Source: a virus
Direction: 5' to 3' (one strand)
Virus record (IMG/VR): IMGVR_UViG_3300037222_000116
Span: 23,903 to 87,902 of that record
Length of the DNA stretch: 64,000 bases
A model generated the notes under the pieces. That model saw only the letters and a list, made by a program, of their open reading frames with translations. It was not told the origin of the DNA and made no database searches. Position 1 is the stretch's first letter. Each line of letters opens with the position of its first letter. Positions 32,323 to 64,000 of the stretch are shown in pieces. Both the position numbers and the translations under genes were made by a program.

Positions 32323-32607
32323 ATGGACACCATCGACGACGGCGAGCTGGGGCGCGCAGGGCGCTGCAAGTACGGCAAGGTCACGCGCGGCAGGCGCAAG
32401 GGGCAATGTCGCTTGCACAAGAAGGCTCCCAAGGCGAGCAAGCGGCGCAGCGGGCAGCGGCATTGCGTGCGGACGGCGGTCAATCGTCTCACGCGCCGCG
32501 AGTACTGCGCTGACTACGAGCCGGGTCCGTCGCCCTACCCCAAGGGCACGCGCTTCATCCAGCCGGTCTACGGCGCGCGGCGTAGCAAGCGTCGTCGCTC
32601 ACGCTAG
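32323..32607 (+). CDS. small basic Cys-motif protein
   Basis: A 94-residue, highly basic protein beginning MDTIDDGELGRAGRCKYGK and continuing VTRGRRKGQCRLHKK, the first of four neighbouring products with a C-K-(Y/F)-G-(K/R) to G-(K/R)-x-C motif. Two further Cys follow, and it ends RRSKRRRSR. The charge suggests nucleic-acid binding. A TTG two codons earlier is an alternative start. Confidence 0.65.
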   Translation: MDTIDDGELGRAGRCKYGKVTRGRRKGQCRLHKKAPKASKRRSGQRHCVRTAVNRLTRREYCADYEPGPSPYPKGTRFIQPVYGARRSKRRRSR

Positions 32608-32722
32608 AGAACAACGGCCCAAAGCGCGAGAACGCTCTGAGCCGTTGGACCGATGTTCCGGTCTTGTGTGGTCCCGTCGGAAGCGGGGAGCCGCAACAGG
32701 CTCAGTTTCTCTTGACGTTGCT

Positions 32723-32738
32723 GTAGCAAATCTGCTAC
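32723..32738 (+). promoter_or_regulatory. operator/promoter (GTAGCAAATCTGCTAC)
   Basis: Copy of the recurring operator. TTGACG lies 18 nt upstream of TACTGC, and the ATG follows 9 nt after the right arm. Confidence 0.6.
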
Positions 32739-32747
32739 TGCTCGGGA

Positions 32748-33155
32748 ATGCCTTACATCACCCTCGATGGTATTTCCTATGCTGTCGTTCACGACGGCTG
32801 CTTCATCACAAATGATGGCCTCGATTACCTGCGGGCGATCGACCGCGGCAAGGGCTGTTACTCGAAGACGCGTGATGCCCCCGAACGTGAGCAGGTGGAA
32901 CTCGCCAAGAAGTTCATCGTCGCGAACTGTCTCAAGACCAAGACGATCCGTGATCTGATTGATTCCTATGGCTGGAAGCATCGCTGTGAGCGTTGGGGGA
33001 AAGCACAGGGCTTTGCCGCCTACGTGACCAACGGCGCGTTTCTCCAAGCTGCCTATGAGATGGGAGGCATCGCCATCAAACCGTGCAGGCCGGGTTGCAT
33101 CAATGCATGGCTGTCCCTCGGATTTGCCCGAGGCCGCACGAAGCTCTGCTTGTAG
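32748..33155 (+). CDS. hypothetical protein
   Basis: A 135-residue protein of unknown function (MPYITLDGISYAVVHDGCFITNDGLDYLRAIDRGKG...). It is a mixed alpha/beta sequence with several Cys (KHRCERW, KPCRPGCINAW). Start and promoter spacing indicate a leaderless or nearly leaderless mRNA. Confidence 0.6.
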   Translation: MPYITLDGISYAVVHDGCFITNDGLDYLRAIDRGKGCYSKTRDAPEREQVELAKKFIVANCLKTKTIRDLIDSYGWKHRCERWGKAQGFAAYVTNGAFLQAAYEMGGIAIKPCRPGCINAWLSLGFARGRTKLCL

Positions 33156-33159
33156 TTTA

Positions 33160-33175
33160 GTTGCAATTATACAAC
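33160..33175 (+). promoter_or_regulatory. operator-like element, one mismatch
   Basis: GTTGCAATTATACAAC, one base off the GTNGCANNNNTGCNAC consensus, inside the AT-rich gap before the Cys-motif gene at 33256. Confidence 0.35.
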
Positions 33176-33255
33176 AATTTGCAATCGCTGTAGCTCCACG
33201 TCTACACTCGCTCCCGATGCTGTAAGCAATTCCTCGTTCATCTCGGAGCGACACC

Positions 33256-33471
33256 ATGGCGACCAACGAATTCGTTTCCAACGACGGCGAGCTGGGGCGC
33301 GCACGCAAGCGCACCTGCAAGTTCGGCAAGACCAAGGCGGGCAAGTGCCGCAAGACGCCCAAGCGCAAGGGTCGCCGTGGGTGCTCCTTCGGTCGCTCGC
33401 GCACCACCGGCAAGTGCAAGCCGCGCACGAGCAAGTACGGCACGCAGCGCGGCCCCCTGCGCCCTCGCTAA
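33256..33471 (+). CDS. small basic Cys-motif protein
   Basis: A 71-residue protein starting MATNEFVSNDGELGRARKR, then TCKFGKTKAGKCRKTPKRKG and a second near-copy CSFGRSRTTGKCKPR. It has two Cys-pair motifs and about one third Lys/Arg. It resembles a protamine-like or zinc-knuckle DNA-binding peptide. The acidic N-terminus before GELGRA is shared with the 32323 protein. Confidence 0.7.
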   Translation: MATNEFVSNDGELGRARKRTCKFGKTKAGKCRKTPKRKGRRGCSFGRSRTTGKCKPRTSKYGTQRGPLRPR

Positions 33472-33482
33472 AGGAGACGACC

Positions 33483-33797
33483 ATGAGCGACTGTGGATGT
33501 GACGGAGGCGACGACCTCGGTCGCGCCAAGAAGCGACGCACCTGCAAGTACGGTCGCGTCAAGAGCACCGGGCGCTGCCGCAAGCAGCCGAAGCGTCGCA
33601 CTGCCTCGAAGCGAGGCCGGGCGATCCCCAAGGTCTGCAAGCAGCAGCTCTCGCGCGACATGAGGGCCGCGCACGGCGACCGCGGGATGGCGCGCGACGC
33701 GATGTACGCGTTCCACAACTGCACCGACGACATCAAGCGCGGTGTGCGCACGAGGTCGCAGGGCATGTTCGGCGCACGCCGCCGCAAGCGTCGATAG
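33483..33797 (+). CDS. basic Cys-motif protein
   Basis: A 104-residue protein starting MSDCGCDGGDDLGRAKKRR, followed by TCKYGRVKSTGRCRKQPKRR, then a helical region with two further Cys and an end MFGARRRKRR. It belongs to the same small family as 32323, 33256 and 33813. GGAG precedes the ATG. Confidence 0.7.
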   Translation: MSDCGCDGGDDLGRAKKRRTCKYGRVKSTGRCRKQPKRRTASKRGRAIPKVCKQQLSRDMRAAHGDRGMARDAMYAFHNCTDDIKRGVRTRSQGMFGARRRKRR

Positions 33798-53700: not shown

Positions 53701-56700
53701 TTACGGCCCGGTTCCGATCATGCGAAAGTACGGCTGACGGAAGACGTTAGCCGCGCCTGTTTGGTTGATGTCGCTGATGTGCATTGAGTTAGCGAAAGCG
53801 CCTGTGCCTGTGCTGTAGAGGCCATTCCCGAAGAATCCGGTGTGATCACCACCACCCGGAATCGCGCCAACAGCGATACCGCTTTGTCCAAAGATCGACA
53901 CGCTCGCGGTTGAACCCGCGACGCCTGCTACGCTGTGAATGAATCCAATTAGATAATCGCCGGGCGTGAAGCTCCACGTTCCGAGCGCGATGCTGCGCCA
54001 CCGCGTGCCGCTCTGTCCGCTGTATGATCCGGTGTTGCTAATTGCACCCCCCGAGTTCCACGCCAACGCCGCCGACGTAGAAGAGACGGTAGACGCCGAG
54101 CTACCAGCGAACGTATAGATCGCAATGCTCATCGTTGTAGAGCCTTGCGTAGCGGCTGCAATGGTCAGGTTGCCAAGATATTCAAGAACCGTTGGTGATA
54201 TGTTTGCTGGTATATGAAAGCGCTGAAAACTCACGTTTGCAGATGTGCTGACAGACGCTGCGCCATTGGCGATCAAGGCCATCGGGAAGTCGTTTTCCCA
54301 ATAGCTCAAAGCGAGTAACTGCGCAGTCATTTGCGAAGAGCCGCTCAAGCCAAATGAGATCCCGTTGCTATTGACGAAGGCAATGGTTCCTGACGTCCCG
54401 GTTTGCCCACCAGCAGCGACAGCGACACCCGCGGGAACGGTATAGCTCGCAGTAATTTGTGAACTGCCGCTCATACCGAAAGTGATGCCGTTGCTATTGG
54501 CGAAAACAACTGTCCCTGTTGCAGCCGTCTGCGATCCTGCGGCTACGTCAACAACGCCAGCGACAGAGCCGGTAATCGTCCCGCCACCGGCCCCCGTTGC
54601 CATTCCAAAGCTGATGTTGTTGAGATTCGAGAACGAAACGTCGCCGGTTGTTGCGGTCCCACCGCTCGCAGCAATCGACTGGATGCCGGGCTGTACTGTC
54701 TGCGTCGGAACTGTATAGCTCGCTGTAATGCCAGTCGAGCCGCTCATTCCGAACGAAATGCCATTGCTGTTAACGAAGGCGACAGTTCCGCTCGCTGCGG
54801 TCTGTGAGCCTGCGACGATGTCAAGCACGCCAACAGCAGGCACCGTGTAGGAAGCTGTAACTGTCCCGCCTCCAGCTCCGGTAGCCATCCCGAATGTCAC
54901 GCCATTGGAGTTGGCGAAACTGACGTCTCCTGTTGTTGCTGTACCACCGCTCGCGGCGACAGATTGAATTCCCGGTTGAACAGTCTGGGTAGGAACGGTG
55001 TAGCTGGCGGTGATTCCGGTCGAACCAGACATCCCGAAACTGATTCCGTTCGAGTTGACCAGCGCGATCGTCCCGCTCGTTCCAGTCTGCGATCCAGCAG
55101 CAAACCCTCCCGGTGCTACGCTCTGCGCGGCGATGCTGGCGGTGATGGTCGAACCGCTCAACCCGAACGTCACACCATTCGAGTTGGCGAACTGAACAGT
55201 GCCGTTGGTGACGACAGATGTCCCACTTCCCTGCAACGCTGCTGGAGCTGTCGACTGTGAATAGCTTGCGGTAATGCCGGTCGACCCGGACATTCCGAAC
55301 GTGACACCATTCGAGTTGACAAAGGCAACTGTGCCGCTGGCGGCGGTCTGTGATCCGGCAGCAATGTCCAGCACGCCAACAGCAGGGACGCTATAACTGG
55401 CAGTAACCGTTCCGCCGCCAGCTCCAGTCGCCATTCCAAATGTGACGCCGTTGCTATTGGCAAACGAAACATCGCCTGTCGTAGCGGTGCCTCCCGAAGC
55501 AGCAATCGACTGAATGCCGGGCTGGACTGTTTGAGTTGGGACTGTGTAGCTCGCAGTGATCTGCGTGCTACCGCTCATCCCAAACGTGATCCCATTGCTG
55601 TTAACGAAGGCAATCGTGCCGCTCGTACCTGTCTGCGAACCTGCGGCAATGGCTCCCGGTGCAACGCTTTGCGCAGCAATCGAAGCTGTAACTGTTCCGC
55701 CGCCGACGCCCGTTGCCATTCCAAATGTGACACCATTGGAATTCGCAAAGCTGACATCACCAGTCGTAGCAGTCCCGCCAGAAGCAGCGATTGATTGGAT
55801 GCCCGGTTGAACGCTCTGCGTCGGCACGGTGTACGACGCGGTGATCGCGGTCGACCCACTCATCCCGAACGAGATGCCGTTCGAGTTGACGAACGCGATG
55901 GTTCCCGAGCTGCCGGTTTGCGATCCAGCAGCGATTGCAGCAGGACCAGTGCTCTGCGAGTACGATGCTGACGCCGTCAGCGTAGAGCCATTGATACCAA
56001 AGCTGACATTGTTGCTGTTGCTGAAGACCAGTGACGACGCAGAGACGCTTGCGGTGATGGCGGTCGAGCCGCTCATTCCAAAGGTCACACCATTGGAATT
56101 GACGAAAGCGATTGTCCCAGATGTCGCTGTTTGAGAGCCTGCGGCGATAGCCCCCGGTGCTGTACTCTGCGCTGCAATCGACGCCGTCAGCGTTGATCCC
56201 GCAATCCCAAAACTGACGTTGTTGCTGTTCGAGAACACCAACGACGACGCGGAGACACTTGCCGTGATGGCAGTGCTCCCAGACATCCCGAACGTCACGC
56301 CATTGCTGTTGACGAAGGCGACAGTTCCACTGGTCGCTGTTTGCGTTCCAGCAGCGATTGCCCCCGGTGCTGTGCTTCCTGCTGCAACACTCGCGGTCAT
56401 CGTCTGCCCGGCGAGGCCGAAGCTCACACCATTGCTGTTGCTGAAGACAACCGTGCCGCTTGTGTCGGTTACGCCACCTGCGGCAATGCCTCCAAGATTG
56501 CCGGTGGCTGTCGCACCAGCAGCGATACTCGCCGTGATTTGCGAAGACCCCGACATCCCGAACGTGACGCCATTCGAGCCTACAAAGACGATCGTACCGC
56601 TGTTGCCAGTTTGTGACCCTGCGGCAATTCCAATATCGACGTCGGCGGGATTGATGGATGCCGTGATGGTCTGCCCGGCGATACCGAAACTGACACCGCC

Positions 56701-57342
56701 ACCGTTGGCAAACGAGATCCCTGAGCCGCCTGCGTTGCCGCCACCAGCACTGACCTCCCGAATGGCGTCCATCGACGCGGTGATCTGCGAGCTGCCAGAC
56801 ATACCGAACGCGAAGCCGTTAGAATCAGCAAAGACAAACGTCCCGGTCGAGCCGCTTTGTGTTCCAGCACTCAGCGCCGGGACAGGCTGCACGCTCTGCG
56901 CAGGGAACGACGCCGACGCTGTGATGGTGCTGCCAGCGATGCCGAAGCTGACGTTGTTAGCATTGGAGAACGATACTGTGTTGTTCGTAACTGGAGGCCC
57001 CGGTGCGGCGTTGACGCCACCAAGGTTGCCTGTCCCGCCACCGCCACCACCGCCGCCACCCTGCCAATAAAGAGTCTGGTTGTCGTTGGTGAGTTTCTGG
57101 ATCGAATGCTCCAGCTCACAAAAGAAGTTCGCGAACTGCGGCGCAGCATCCGGGTTGTGAACCGTGATGTTGATGTTGTCGACGGCGAGGACTTGCAGCG
57201 GCGTCGCGCGATCGGGCTGAACAATGTTTGGAACAGCGCCTTTGTTGTCGACGATGATGCCGTGCGGGAGGACAACCGTCCCACCGGGCGGCACAGGGCC
57301 GACCGGGACGGTTCGCGTAATAGCCGTCCGCGGAGCCTGCAT
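53701..57342 (-). CDS. giant repeat tail-fibre-like protein
   Basis: A 1,213-residue protein. Residues 1-130 form a basic/beta N-terminus with a Gly-run. Residues about 135-1010 are many copies of a 25-35 residue repeat, for example GTIAFVNSNGISFGMSGSTAITASY or VSFANSNGVTFGMATGAGGGTVTAS. The last 200 residues differ (FPMALIANGAASVSTSANVSFQRFHIP...) and probably form the receptor tip. Such SNGxxFGxxGSxxTAS repeats build trimeric beta fibres. The neighbouring genes encode a glycosyltransferase and a methyltransferase. Confidence 0.85.
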   Translation of the reverse strand: MQAPRTAITRTVPVGPVPPGGTVVLPHGIIVDNKGAVPNIVQPDRATPLQVLAVDNINITVHNPDAAPQFANFFCELEHSIQKLTNDNQTLYWQGGGGGGGGGTGNLGGVNAAPGPPVTNNTVSFSNANNVSFGIAGSTITASASFPAQSVQPVPALSAGTQSGSTGTFVFADSNGFAFGMSGSSQITASMDAIREVSAGGGNAGGSGISFANGGGVSFGIAGQTITASINPADVDIGIAAGSQTGNSGTIVFVGSNGVTFGMSGSSQITASIAAGATATGNLGGIAAGGVTDTSGTVVFSNSNGVSFGLAGQTMTASVAAGSTAPGAIAAGTQTATSGTVAFVNSNGVTFGMSGSTAITASVSASSLVFSNSNNVSFGIAGSTLTASIAAQSTAPGAIAAGSQTATSGTIAFVNSNGVTFGMSGSTAITASVSASSLVFSNSNNVSFGINGSTLTASASYSQSTGPAAIAAGSQTGSSGTIAFVNSNGISFGMSGSTAITASYTVPTQSVQPGIQSIAASGGTATTGDVSFANSNGVTFGMATGVGGGTVTASIAAQSVAPGAIAAGSQTGTSGTIAFVNSNGITFGMSGSTQITASYTVPTQTVQPGIQSIAASGGTATTGDVSFANSNGVTFGMATGAGGGTVTASYSVPAVGVLDIAAGSQTAASGTVAFVNSNGVTFGMSGSTGITASYSQSTAPAALQGSGTSVVTNGTVQFANSNGVTFGLSGSTITASIAAQSVAPGGFAAGSQTGTSGTIALVNSNGISFGMSGSTGITASYTVPTQTVQPGIQSVAASGGTATTGDVSFANSNGVTFGMATGAGGGTVTASYTVPAVGVLDIVAGSQTAASGTVAFVNSNGISFGMSGSTGITASYTVPTQTVQPGIQSIAASGGTATTGDVSFSNLNNISFGMATGAGGGTITGSVAGVVDVAAGSQTAATGTVVFANSNGITFGMSGSSQITASYTVPAGVAVAAGGQTGTSGTIAFVNSNGISFGLSGSSQMTAQLLALSYWENDFPMALIANGAASVSTSANVSFQRFHIPANISPTVLEYLGNLTIAAATQGSTTMSIAIYTFAGSSASTVSSTSAALAWNSGGAISNTGSYSGQSGTRWRSIALGTWSFTPGDYLIGFIHSVAGVAGSTASVSIFGQSGIAVGAIPGGGDHTGFFGNGLYSTGTGAFANSMHISDINQTGAANVFRQPYFRMIGTGP

Positions 57343-61843: not shown

Positions 61844-61858
61844 TAAGGCTGATTATCA
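61844..61858 (+). promoter_or_regulatory. shared leader element (TAAGGCTGATTATCA)
   Basis: TAAG(G)CTGATTATCA is repeated at 63674-63687, in both cases 21-23 nt before a GAGGAGAAYGAACATG start region. CTGAT-T-ATCAG is palindromic. Confidence 0.6.
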
Positions 61859-61881
61859 TGGCAGCGACGAGGAGAATGAAC

Positions 61882-62169
61882 ATGAAAATGCCAACGGAAA
61901 CGACGTATCCTGATGAAGCCTGCTTCTTTGAAGTGATCGCGCTGTCCGAGGAGCATGTCGGTGGCGGTGTCGAGATCGGCGATCACGTCGAAGGTGCCGG
62001 CCCTTGCTGTCTCGGTACAGACGGCGAGTGGAAGCATGGAATCGTCACCATCAACAACCCCGGAGGATTGGCCGAAGAGGACGAGTATTGGGCAATCGGG
62101 CATCTGCGTCCGCTGACATCCGAAGCGCACGCGATGTATGATCGCATCCTCGCGGGACGGAGCCTTTAA
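61882..62169 (+). CDS. hypothetical protein
   Basis: A 95-residue protein (MKMPTETTYPDEACFFEVIALSEEHVGGGVEIGDHVEGAG...) of unknown function. The ATG at 61882 matches a GAGGAG site as in the 63709 gene; earlier in-frame ATGs exist. Confidence 0.6.
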   Translation: MKMPTETTYPDEACFFEVIALSEEHVGGGVEIGDHVEGAGPCCLGTDGEWKHGIVTINNPGGLAEEDEYWAIGHLRPLTSEAHAMYDRILAGRSL

Positions 62170-62617: not shown

Positions 62618-62899
62618 ATGACCCTAGAAAGCTGCGTTCGTTCCGAAGGATGCCAGATGACGAGCGAGGAGCGGCGTGCGTGGGAGAAGGAACAACGCGA
62701 GCGGTCGCTCGAAGTCGATGCGCGGGCGATCCTCGAATACCGAGGCTGGAAAGAGACTGCCGACGGTCGATGGACGCACCGCGAGAAGAACCCTCCTGTG
62801 GAGCCTCCCGAGAAGGGCAAAGGACCGTTCAGTCTGAGAACGGCGTTCTGGCTTGAGGTTGATCCGAGCAGGCTAACCGAGCTACTCCGAGAAGGCTGA
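62618..62899 (+). CDS. small hypothetical protein
   Basis: A 93-residue protein (MTLESCVRSEGCQMTSEERRAWEKEQRERSLEVDARAILEYRGWKET...). Highly charged helix, then a GKGPFSLRTAFWLEV segment. GGGGGAG lies 12 nt before the ATG. Confidence 0.55.
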   Translation: MTLESCVRSEGCQMTSEERRAWEKEQRERSLEVDARAILEYRGWKETADGRWTHREKNPPVEPPEKGKGPFSLRTAFWLEVDPSRLTELLREG

Positions 62900-62930
62900 T
62901 TGACATGAGCACCGTCGAGGACGCACGCTG

Positions 62931-63662
62931 ATGAAAACACCATCGTTCAGGTACATGGGAGGTAAGGCGAGGCTCCGCACATGGCTCGTTGAGCACTTCC
63001 CTCGCAGTGGGCGCATATATGCCGAGCCGTTTGTCGGGCGAGGTAATGTGTTTTTTGAGGCGGTGCAGCGGTTGCAGTTCGCTCACTGGCAACTTGCTGA
63101 TCGTGATGCTGGCTTTCTCCAAGCCTTGCTACGCGCTGACCTTGACCGACTACCTGAGATGGTGGACCGCGCTGCATTCGAGACGTTGCGCAATCAAGGG
63201 GGCGACATCGCACTCCTCGTCGAACCTCGTGTGACCTTCGCAGGTAAAGGCTACGCGGCAGGTTTCAGTGGTTCTAGCGGAACGCATGTTGGTTACTCCT
63301 ACAAGAGCTATCGACCCATGTGCCAAGCTGCACGCGAGTTGCTGAAGCGACCGGGCGTTGATGTTGTCAGTGCGTCATGGAATACGCTTAGTTGGGATCA
63401 ACTCAGTGTGGACGATTTCGCCTATTTCGACCCGCCCTATTTTGGCACAAAGGCATCGTATCCGAACATTGATCACGACGCGCTGATGACACTGCTGAAT
63501 GGTGCTCGGTTTCGATGGGCCTTGTCGGGATACGCTGACCCTGCATACGAAGCAAAGTTGCGGTTCATGCAGCGGTTCGAGCGCGAGCGGAATGCCGAAA
63601 TCAAGTCGTCAAACGCTGGAGGAGCGTCACCTGTAATTGAGGTTTTGTGGACGAATTACTAG
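62931..63662 (+). CDS. D12-class adenine-N6 DNA methyltransferase (Dam-like)
   Basis: A 243-residue enzyme with motif X RYMGGKARL, motif I AEPFVGRGNV, and the catalytic AYFDPPYFGTKASYPNIDHDAL (DPPY). It fits MethyltransfD12 with a shortened target region. It would methylate adenines in phage DNA to resist restriction or mark replication; its target is not visible. It is the second adenine methylase in the window. Confidence 0.9.
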   Translation: MKTPSFRYMGGKARLRTWLVEHFPRSGRIYAEPFVGRGNVFFEAVQRLQFAHWQLADRDAGFLQALLRADLDRLPEMVDRAAFETLRNQGGDIALLVEPRVTFAGKGYAAGFSGSSGTHVGYSYKSYRPMCQAARELLKRPGVDVVSASWNTLSWDQLSVDDFAYFDPPYFGTKASYPNIDHDALMTLLNGARFRWALSGYADPAYEAKLRFMQRFERERNAEIKSSNAGGASPVIEVLWTNY

Positions 63663-63673
63663 TCGTCCCACGT

Positions 63674-63687
63674 TAAGCTGATTATCA
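63674..63687 (+). promoter_or_regulatory. shared leader element (TAAGCTGATTATCA)
   Basis: Second copy of the element at 61844-61858, 21 nt before the 63709 ATG. Confidence 0.6.
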
Positions 63688-63708
63688 GAGTCACAGAGGA
63701 GAACGAAC

Positions 63709-63999
63709 ATGAACGACATGGGATGGGCAATCAAGCAACTGAAGGATCGCGGGTGCGTGGAACGCGCTGGTTGGAACGGGAAGGGGATGTGTCTATTCCT
63801 CGTCGAGTTCTGGTGGAGCAATAACATCAGCACCAAGGGCGACGAACCTGTCGCCTACGGTGCGCCCGCCGAACATCACGACGCGCTTCGCGGACGGATG
63901 CGAAGCCTCGCCCGAGGCACGCGCCACTGCATCGACGAAGCGGACCAGCGTGCGCAGGCTGTAGCGCGGGCGCTTGGCGTCACCAAGGAGAACGCATGA
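63709..63999 (+). CDS. DUF2829/Tad2-like protein
   Basis: A 96-residue protein. The start MNDMGWAIKQLKDRGCVERAGWNGKGMCLFLVEFWWS matches the beginning of DUF2829, whose members include the Thoeris anti-defence protein Tad2 that sequesters signalling nucleotides. The usual C-terminal half (with W and D/Q-rich segment) is missing and replaced by RGRMRSLARGTRHCIDEADQRAQ. So the family assignment is supported only for the N-terminal part. The final TGA overlaps a further ATG at 63996, showing the operon continues past the window. Confidence 0.65.
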   Translation: MNDMGWAIKQLKDRGCVERAGWNGKGMCLFLVEFWWSNNISTKGDEPVAYGAPAEHHDALRGRMRSLARGTRHCIDEADQRAQAVARALGVTKENA

Positions 64000-64000
64000 G

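Follow-up and report, generated by a model that had tools for sequence, protein, structure and literature searches.

A Tad2-like N-terminal half on an orphan C-terminal part in a virus of unclear type

The locus and its setting

The window, i.e., the whole stretch of 64,000 nucleotides analysed here, comprises bases 23,903-87,902 of an 87,902-base virus record, which closes to a circle because its last 122 bases are the same as its first 122. At the right-hand end of the window lies a small open reading frame with a Tad2-like (DUF2829) beginning (Table 1), the start of a known phage protein family whose members sequester bacterial alarm molecules. Codon 57 of this gene contains the start of the terminal repeat, and a single base of the record follows the gene's stop, whose TGA (63997-63999) overlaps the ATG (63996-63998) of a downstream gene with a product of 44 aa. 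The DNA methylase that the initial annotation had placed nearby proves to be the immediate upstream gene and belongs to the D12 class (45 bits against PF02086, cut-off 22); it is preceded by three small ORFs, none with a Pfam match over cut-off. Two genes of this right-hand cluster have a leader in common (61848-61886 and 63677-63713), consisting of GCTGATTATCA and then GAGGAGAA(T/C)GAACATGAA at the start codon, and a partial copy of its first part is present at 62884-62907; it is possibly a common promoter or leader.

Table 1. Features of the Tad2-like gene and its immediate surroundings (window positions)
Feature	Position	Strand	Basis or remark
D12-class N6-adenine DNA methyltransferase	62931..63662	+	PF02086; DPPY present; directly upstream of the Tad2-like ORF
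GAGGAG, probable ribosome-binding site of the Tad2-like ORF	63696..63701	+	read from sequence
Tad2-like ORF	63709..63999	+	96 aa plus TGA; Tad2-like N-half, orphan C-part
Residues 1-33, Tad2 N-half (R.GWNGKGM and surrounding stretch)	63709..63807	+	N-half profile, 62.0 bits
Residues 34-46, transition	63808..63846	+	Pfam alignment ends at residue 46
Residues 47-96, C-part	63847..63996	+	no Tad2 relation detectable; no convincing relatives; low-confidence helix prediction
122-bp terminal repeat	63879..64000		same as the record's first 122 bases
AAGGAG in the last codons of the Tad2-like ORF, probable ribosome-binding site of the next gene	63985..63990	+	read from sequence

The record as a whole is that of a virus of unclear type. 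A primase, a DNA polymerase, ParB, an integrase and a topoisomerase-like protein are clear in it. A PHROG scan of 34 of the 142 gene calls (some counted twice across the circle) gave no convincing head or packaging gene, the exceptions being a weak endolysin-type match and a portal-labelled match to a NUDIX protein, and the Terminase_6N, Terminase_3 and FtsK_SpoIIIE profiles had no match in the record. A 1213-aa protein on the minus strand (53701-57342) consists largely of SGTIAFVNSNGVTFGMSGSTQITAS-kind repeats, followed by a non-repetitive C-terminal part, and is fibre-like; several short basic proteins with a CKYGKVKSGRRK-type motif occur in two places (L003:10355-10786 and window 32323-33797).

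The two halves compared with Tad2 relatives

The Tad2-like start reported in the initial annotation is borne out by Pfam, where PF11195 (Tad2-like) scores 33.5 bits (cut-off 25, E 6.4e-08), aligning protein residues 3-46 to positions 2-32 only of a profile of 73, and no other ORF of the record matches this family at E <= 10. Residues 3-33, and no others, are also matched by two PHROGs of unknown function. Against a profile built from 83 relatives, the 62.0 bits of the N-terminal half were reached by none of 2000 shuffles, the best of which scored 11.1. Residues R19, G21, W22, N23, G24, G26 and M27 are invariant with 49 relatives, mostly through selection, as the IMG/VR ones were found by the pattern GWNG[KR]GM; the independent test of membership is the Pfam score, not the invariance of GWNGKGM. 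Further along, FWWSNN (residues 34-39) is faintly like an FW..N loop in three relatives (L032, L045 and L091), and the Tad2 similarity may by sequence extend to about residue 46. Scanning IMG/VR with the pattern GWNGKGMC gave no match.

In the PDB sequence search, seven of the eight matches listed are proteins deposited as Tad2, Gp34.65, AcrIIA7 or type II CRISPR-Cas inhibitor, all aligned from residue 4 to 30-32 with E values of 0.011-0.048. The best match is 8kbi ('Inhibitor of Type II CRISPR-Cas system'; residues 4-31, E 0.011), which has GWNGKGM, and 9kzr (deposited as AcrIIA7) aligns over the same residues (E 0.019). Entry 9eib, 'Prophage anti-Thoeris 2 (ModTad2)', also shares GWNGKGM and aligns over residues 4-32 (E 0.018); it is presumably MoTad2 of a Myroides odoratus prophage, described as a His-ADPR sponge. 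The Tad2-like domain of MoTad2 is given as 83 aa in passages of PMC13299392. Residues 4-32 further correspond to residues 8-36 of SPO1 Tad2 (Thoeris anti-defence 2, Gp34.65 of a Bacillus phage; PDB 8sme, 8smf, 8smg, 8wje), with a phmmer E of 0.042 for 8sme and the family PF11195 common to both. The likeness of the window protein goes no further, its matches stopping at residue 31 (8kbi and 9kzr) or 32 (9eib and SPO1 Tad2), and the C-terminal block of SPO1 Tad2, which probably comprises its strand beta4 and helix alpha3, was not found.

How constant this block is was read from relatives gathered regardless of their C-terminus. One set (n = 84), confirmed against the whole window protein, held four relatives from bacterial genome contigs and the best 80 of 145 such loci found in IMG/VR with the pattern GWNG[KR]GM; a second set held the best 80 of 505 from an IMG/VR scan with a 32-residue N-terminal alignment. 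All 84 members of the former match a looser pattern requiring W, D and [DN][WY] at the block spacing (columns thus set by the pattern itself), and a stricter block pattern recognises 66 of them, the other 18 having S or E for A, I for S, or DY for DW. The motif is present in 78/80 members of the second set; L149 has DHW, and L169 is cut by the contig end. Once the sets were merged and only sequences distinct from GWNG onwards were counted, 121 of 123 had the C-terminal motif W.....D....DW or one close to it, the remaining two being a one-residue variant and a contig-cut sequence. The block was also recognised by eye in 12/12 relatives examined from 37 phage-collection records. Across the sample examined, the second half is kept almost without exception and the loop between the halves varies widely. 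IMG/VR relatives of the IGWAVK type with WLCSQTDLLA.DW ends, such as L026 and L030, are 65-66% identical to the window protein over the first 31-32 residues, but these two have the canonical second half that it lacks. As to domain arrangement, the Tad2-like domain stands at the C-terminal end of longer products in three annotated proteins (L013, L015, L016) and two open frames (L027, L092), and more than 60 open residues lie upstream of the match in 20/84 relatives, some possibly by chance; Tad2 may commonly serve as a second domain.

For the window protein, the initial annotation had held the expected second half to be replaced, and the comparison agrees. With filters off, its C-terminal half gave no reportable domain against the matching C-half profile (the best of 2000 shuffles reached 7.9 bits by chance), and the 13-column block W..SQ.D.LA.DW scored at best -33 bits ungapped, a value equalled or exceeded by 4637 of 5000 shuffles; the 84 relatives, which also served to train the block matrix, score no lower than 31. 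Both conserved block tryptophans are missing. Read by eye, the first 790 bases from the ATG show no Tad2 C-half in any forward frame, and a frameshift of a canonical Tad2 is therefore rejected. On the sequence comparisons, the protein is a Tad2-family N-terminal half on an orphan tail and a singleton within what was searched.

Tail sequence, coding signal and structure models

Relatives of the tail were sought in several collections. A Pfam scan of residues 28-96 returned only a sub-threshold ribosomal-protein match (13.9 bits of 27.3), and nothing was found with residues 32-96 among PDB chains and PHROGs. A tblastn search of phages with the tail gave one phage in two records (E 8), the plasmid matches that reach the tail had E values of 3 and worse, and 398 genomes of one phylum yielded five matches (E 0.001-0.006 per genome), roughly the number to be expected by chance with a limit of 0.01; re-aligned on both strands, these five stretches score 69-75, all alike, and four of them lie in open frames of 471-700 residues. 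The DNA had two short blastn matches in phages (E 0.03 and 0.3). No sister phage was found via the Dam methylase, a 124-aa neighbour or the 44-aa downstream protein, and the topoisomerase-like protein of the record matched 70 phage records, all at <60% identity.

Two candidate origins of the tail were rejected. A scan of IMG/VR with GTRHCIDE, a pattern taken from the tail itself, hit one stretch, GTRHCIDEA in a YAcAr SLOG-family protein (L022:3420-3776, minus strand), with about one chance match estimated. A SLOG origin was not upheld, as only these nine residues are shared and the flanks differ; GTRHCIDEA falls outside the PF10686-matched region of the SLOG protein (residues 1-62), and judging by the sequences its occurrence in both is probably due to chance. 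PF10686 (YAcAr SLOG), tested as a profile only, had no match in the record at E <= 10. An Acb2/Tad1 hairpin (PF24729), likewise tested as a profile and not as a fold, had no match at E <= 10 across the record and none in the tail scan.

Codon usage over residues 34-96 favours the frame (0.21 bits/codon, the two alternative forward frames scoring -0.32 and -0.53), with a strong signal in residues 34-57 (0.46 bits/codon) and a weak one in residues 58-96 (0.05 versus -0.37 and -0.39). Residues 54-88 are weakly amphipathic, as 224 of 5000 shuffles reach their moment; four other segments are weaker (415 to 967 of 5000).

Structure prediction against Tad2 had been proposed as a check, and its outcome is divided: a model based on relatives is loosely like SPO1 Tad2, a single-sequence model differs, and the sequence leans to no pocket. 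AlphaFold2 with 50 aligned sequences gave block-mean pLDDT values of 84-88 for residues 1-30 and about 48-70 thereafter, with E48-53, H54-63, H77-81 and E86-88 as secondary structure. This model matches SPO1 Tad2 (8smf) over 74 residues at Z 5.8 (rmsd 3.0, 24% identity), a value that is middling by the tool's own note and close to the 5.4 of an unrelated phage neck protein (8qkh) in the same list, and Foldseek against the PDB placed SPO1 Tad2 first with an E of only 0.37. The other 49 alignment rows are canonical Tad2 proteins, so the tail is biased and the likeness to SPO1 Tad2 partly built in; the alignment also sets D79 in the column of an aspartate that is invariant in all 50 rows. The single-sequence model (mean pLDDT 57) has one long helix at 54-88 and helices at 16-19 and 24-38, and it is unreliable because its N-terminal half is helical where the relatives-based model has strands. 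In the region of the gcADPR pocket the second-half sequence is missing, and the two models disagree at low confidence.

Possible origin and function

We consider it somewhat probable that the gene is an in-frame fusion or deletion derivative whose product has lost the canonical sponge pocket. What is seen directly is a Tad2 N-terminal half without the Tad2 C-terminal half, in an intact frame that runs into the next gene by a stop-start overlap. A DUF2829/Tad2-family gene would have kept its first 33 to about 46 codons and acquired, in the same frame, the 3' end of an unrelated small phage gene; the simplest routes to this would be an in-frame deletion or illegitimate recombination inside the small-gene cluster. 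We infer that the tail is the native 3' end of this other gene, because the downstream gene has its probable ribosome-binding site there. Passages of PMC12043709 describe the gcADPR pocket as formed by the loops beta1-beta2 and beta3-beta4, strand beta4, the loop beta4-alpha3 and helix alpha3. If the conserved C-terminal block is, as seems probable, the beta4-alpha3 region, the half that supplies much of the pocket would be missing here, and the protein would keep at most the beta1-beta2 part of the pocket as described there, so that the canonical sponge function is probably lost. The product would then be unable to build the canonical nucleotide-sponge pocket, an anti-Thoeris function of the SPO1 kind would probably be gone, and the gene would be decaying or have some other function. 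Against a fusion, the searches turned up neither a donor gene for the tail nor a second example that would show the arrangement to be stable. Against a fusion with loss of the pocket stand the weak coding signal of residues 58-96 (0.05 bits/codon) and the alignment-based model, which is like SPO1 Tad2 over most of its length and has D79 in the invariant aspartate column of the block; the intact ORF, preceded by a ribosome-binding site, may point to selection for some function.

The same ORF and ribosome-binding site, a codon usage that fits the frame overall and the position in a small-gene cluster adjoining a DNA methylase would also suit a retargeted anti-defence protein, as the initial annotation had suggested, in which the Tad2 N-terminal half would be a scaffold for oligomerisation, with another pocket or partner provided by the new tail, which is perhaps helical. 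Ligands already bound by the Tad2 fold include both gcADPR and His-ADPR (in passages of PMC13299392), and one Tad2 binds cyclic dinucleotides at a separate site formed by an insertion after strand beta2 (in passages of PMC12043709), about where the tail begins here; the weak amphipathicity of residues 54-88 (224/5000 shuffles) is in line with it. We nevertheless regard retargeting as unlikely, since no relative with the same tail turned up in anything searched, the Acb2/Tad1 hairpin profile is without a match in the record, and the tail helix stems from the unreliable single-sequence model. That a working chimera exists, with the tail giving the Tad2 scaffold a new ligand pocket or protein target, i.e., counter-defence by half-domain swap, appears quite improbable. 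Less likely than a retargeted function is a strongly diverged yet complete Tad2, with EPVAYG as strand beta3, GAPAEHHDALRGRMRSLARGT as a long insertion and RHCIDEADQRAQAVARAL as the alpha3 region. The secondary structure of the alignment-based model, its match to 8smf and the placement of D79 speak for such a protein, but the pLDDT of the C-terminal half is low (about 48-70), canonical rows were forced on the tail by the alignment, there is no sequence signal and both block tryptophans are absent; the neck protein scores nearly as high as 8smf in the same list, and the Foldseek E of 0.37 points in the same direction, so we hold a complete Tad2 to be rather improbable.

The join itself could be an assembly effect, the halves coming from different molecules that the assembly linked at the closing point of the record. 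Only about 33 to 72 bases, depending on the end chosen, separate the last Tad2 similarity from the start of the terminal repeat at 63879, the repeated part (residues 58-96) has the weakest codon signal, and no near relatives that confirm the join came from the searches made, which may leave out records very close to this one. However, the similarity has already ended before the repeat is reached, within an uninterrupted stretch of the contig, and codon usage is good in residues 34-57 (0.46 bits/codon). If, moreover, the overlap reflects an assembly word of about 121-122 bases, reads would have contained every such word across the join, and we see little likelihood in a purely technical origin.

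A fusion with loss of the sponge pocket is thus the reading that we favour. In the open-access literature, as covered by titles and the starts of abstracts (a scope outside which most subscription papers lie), no half-replaced Tad2 is described. A natural protein with the first half only would show whether the Tad2 N-terminal half folds and assembles alone. A functional product would reveal how sponge proteins come to change their target; a non-functional one cautions that a protein may pass the Pfam cut-off for Tad2-like through its first half alone, and such a call is then not to be read as anti-Thoeris function.
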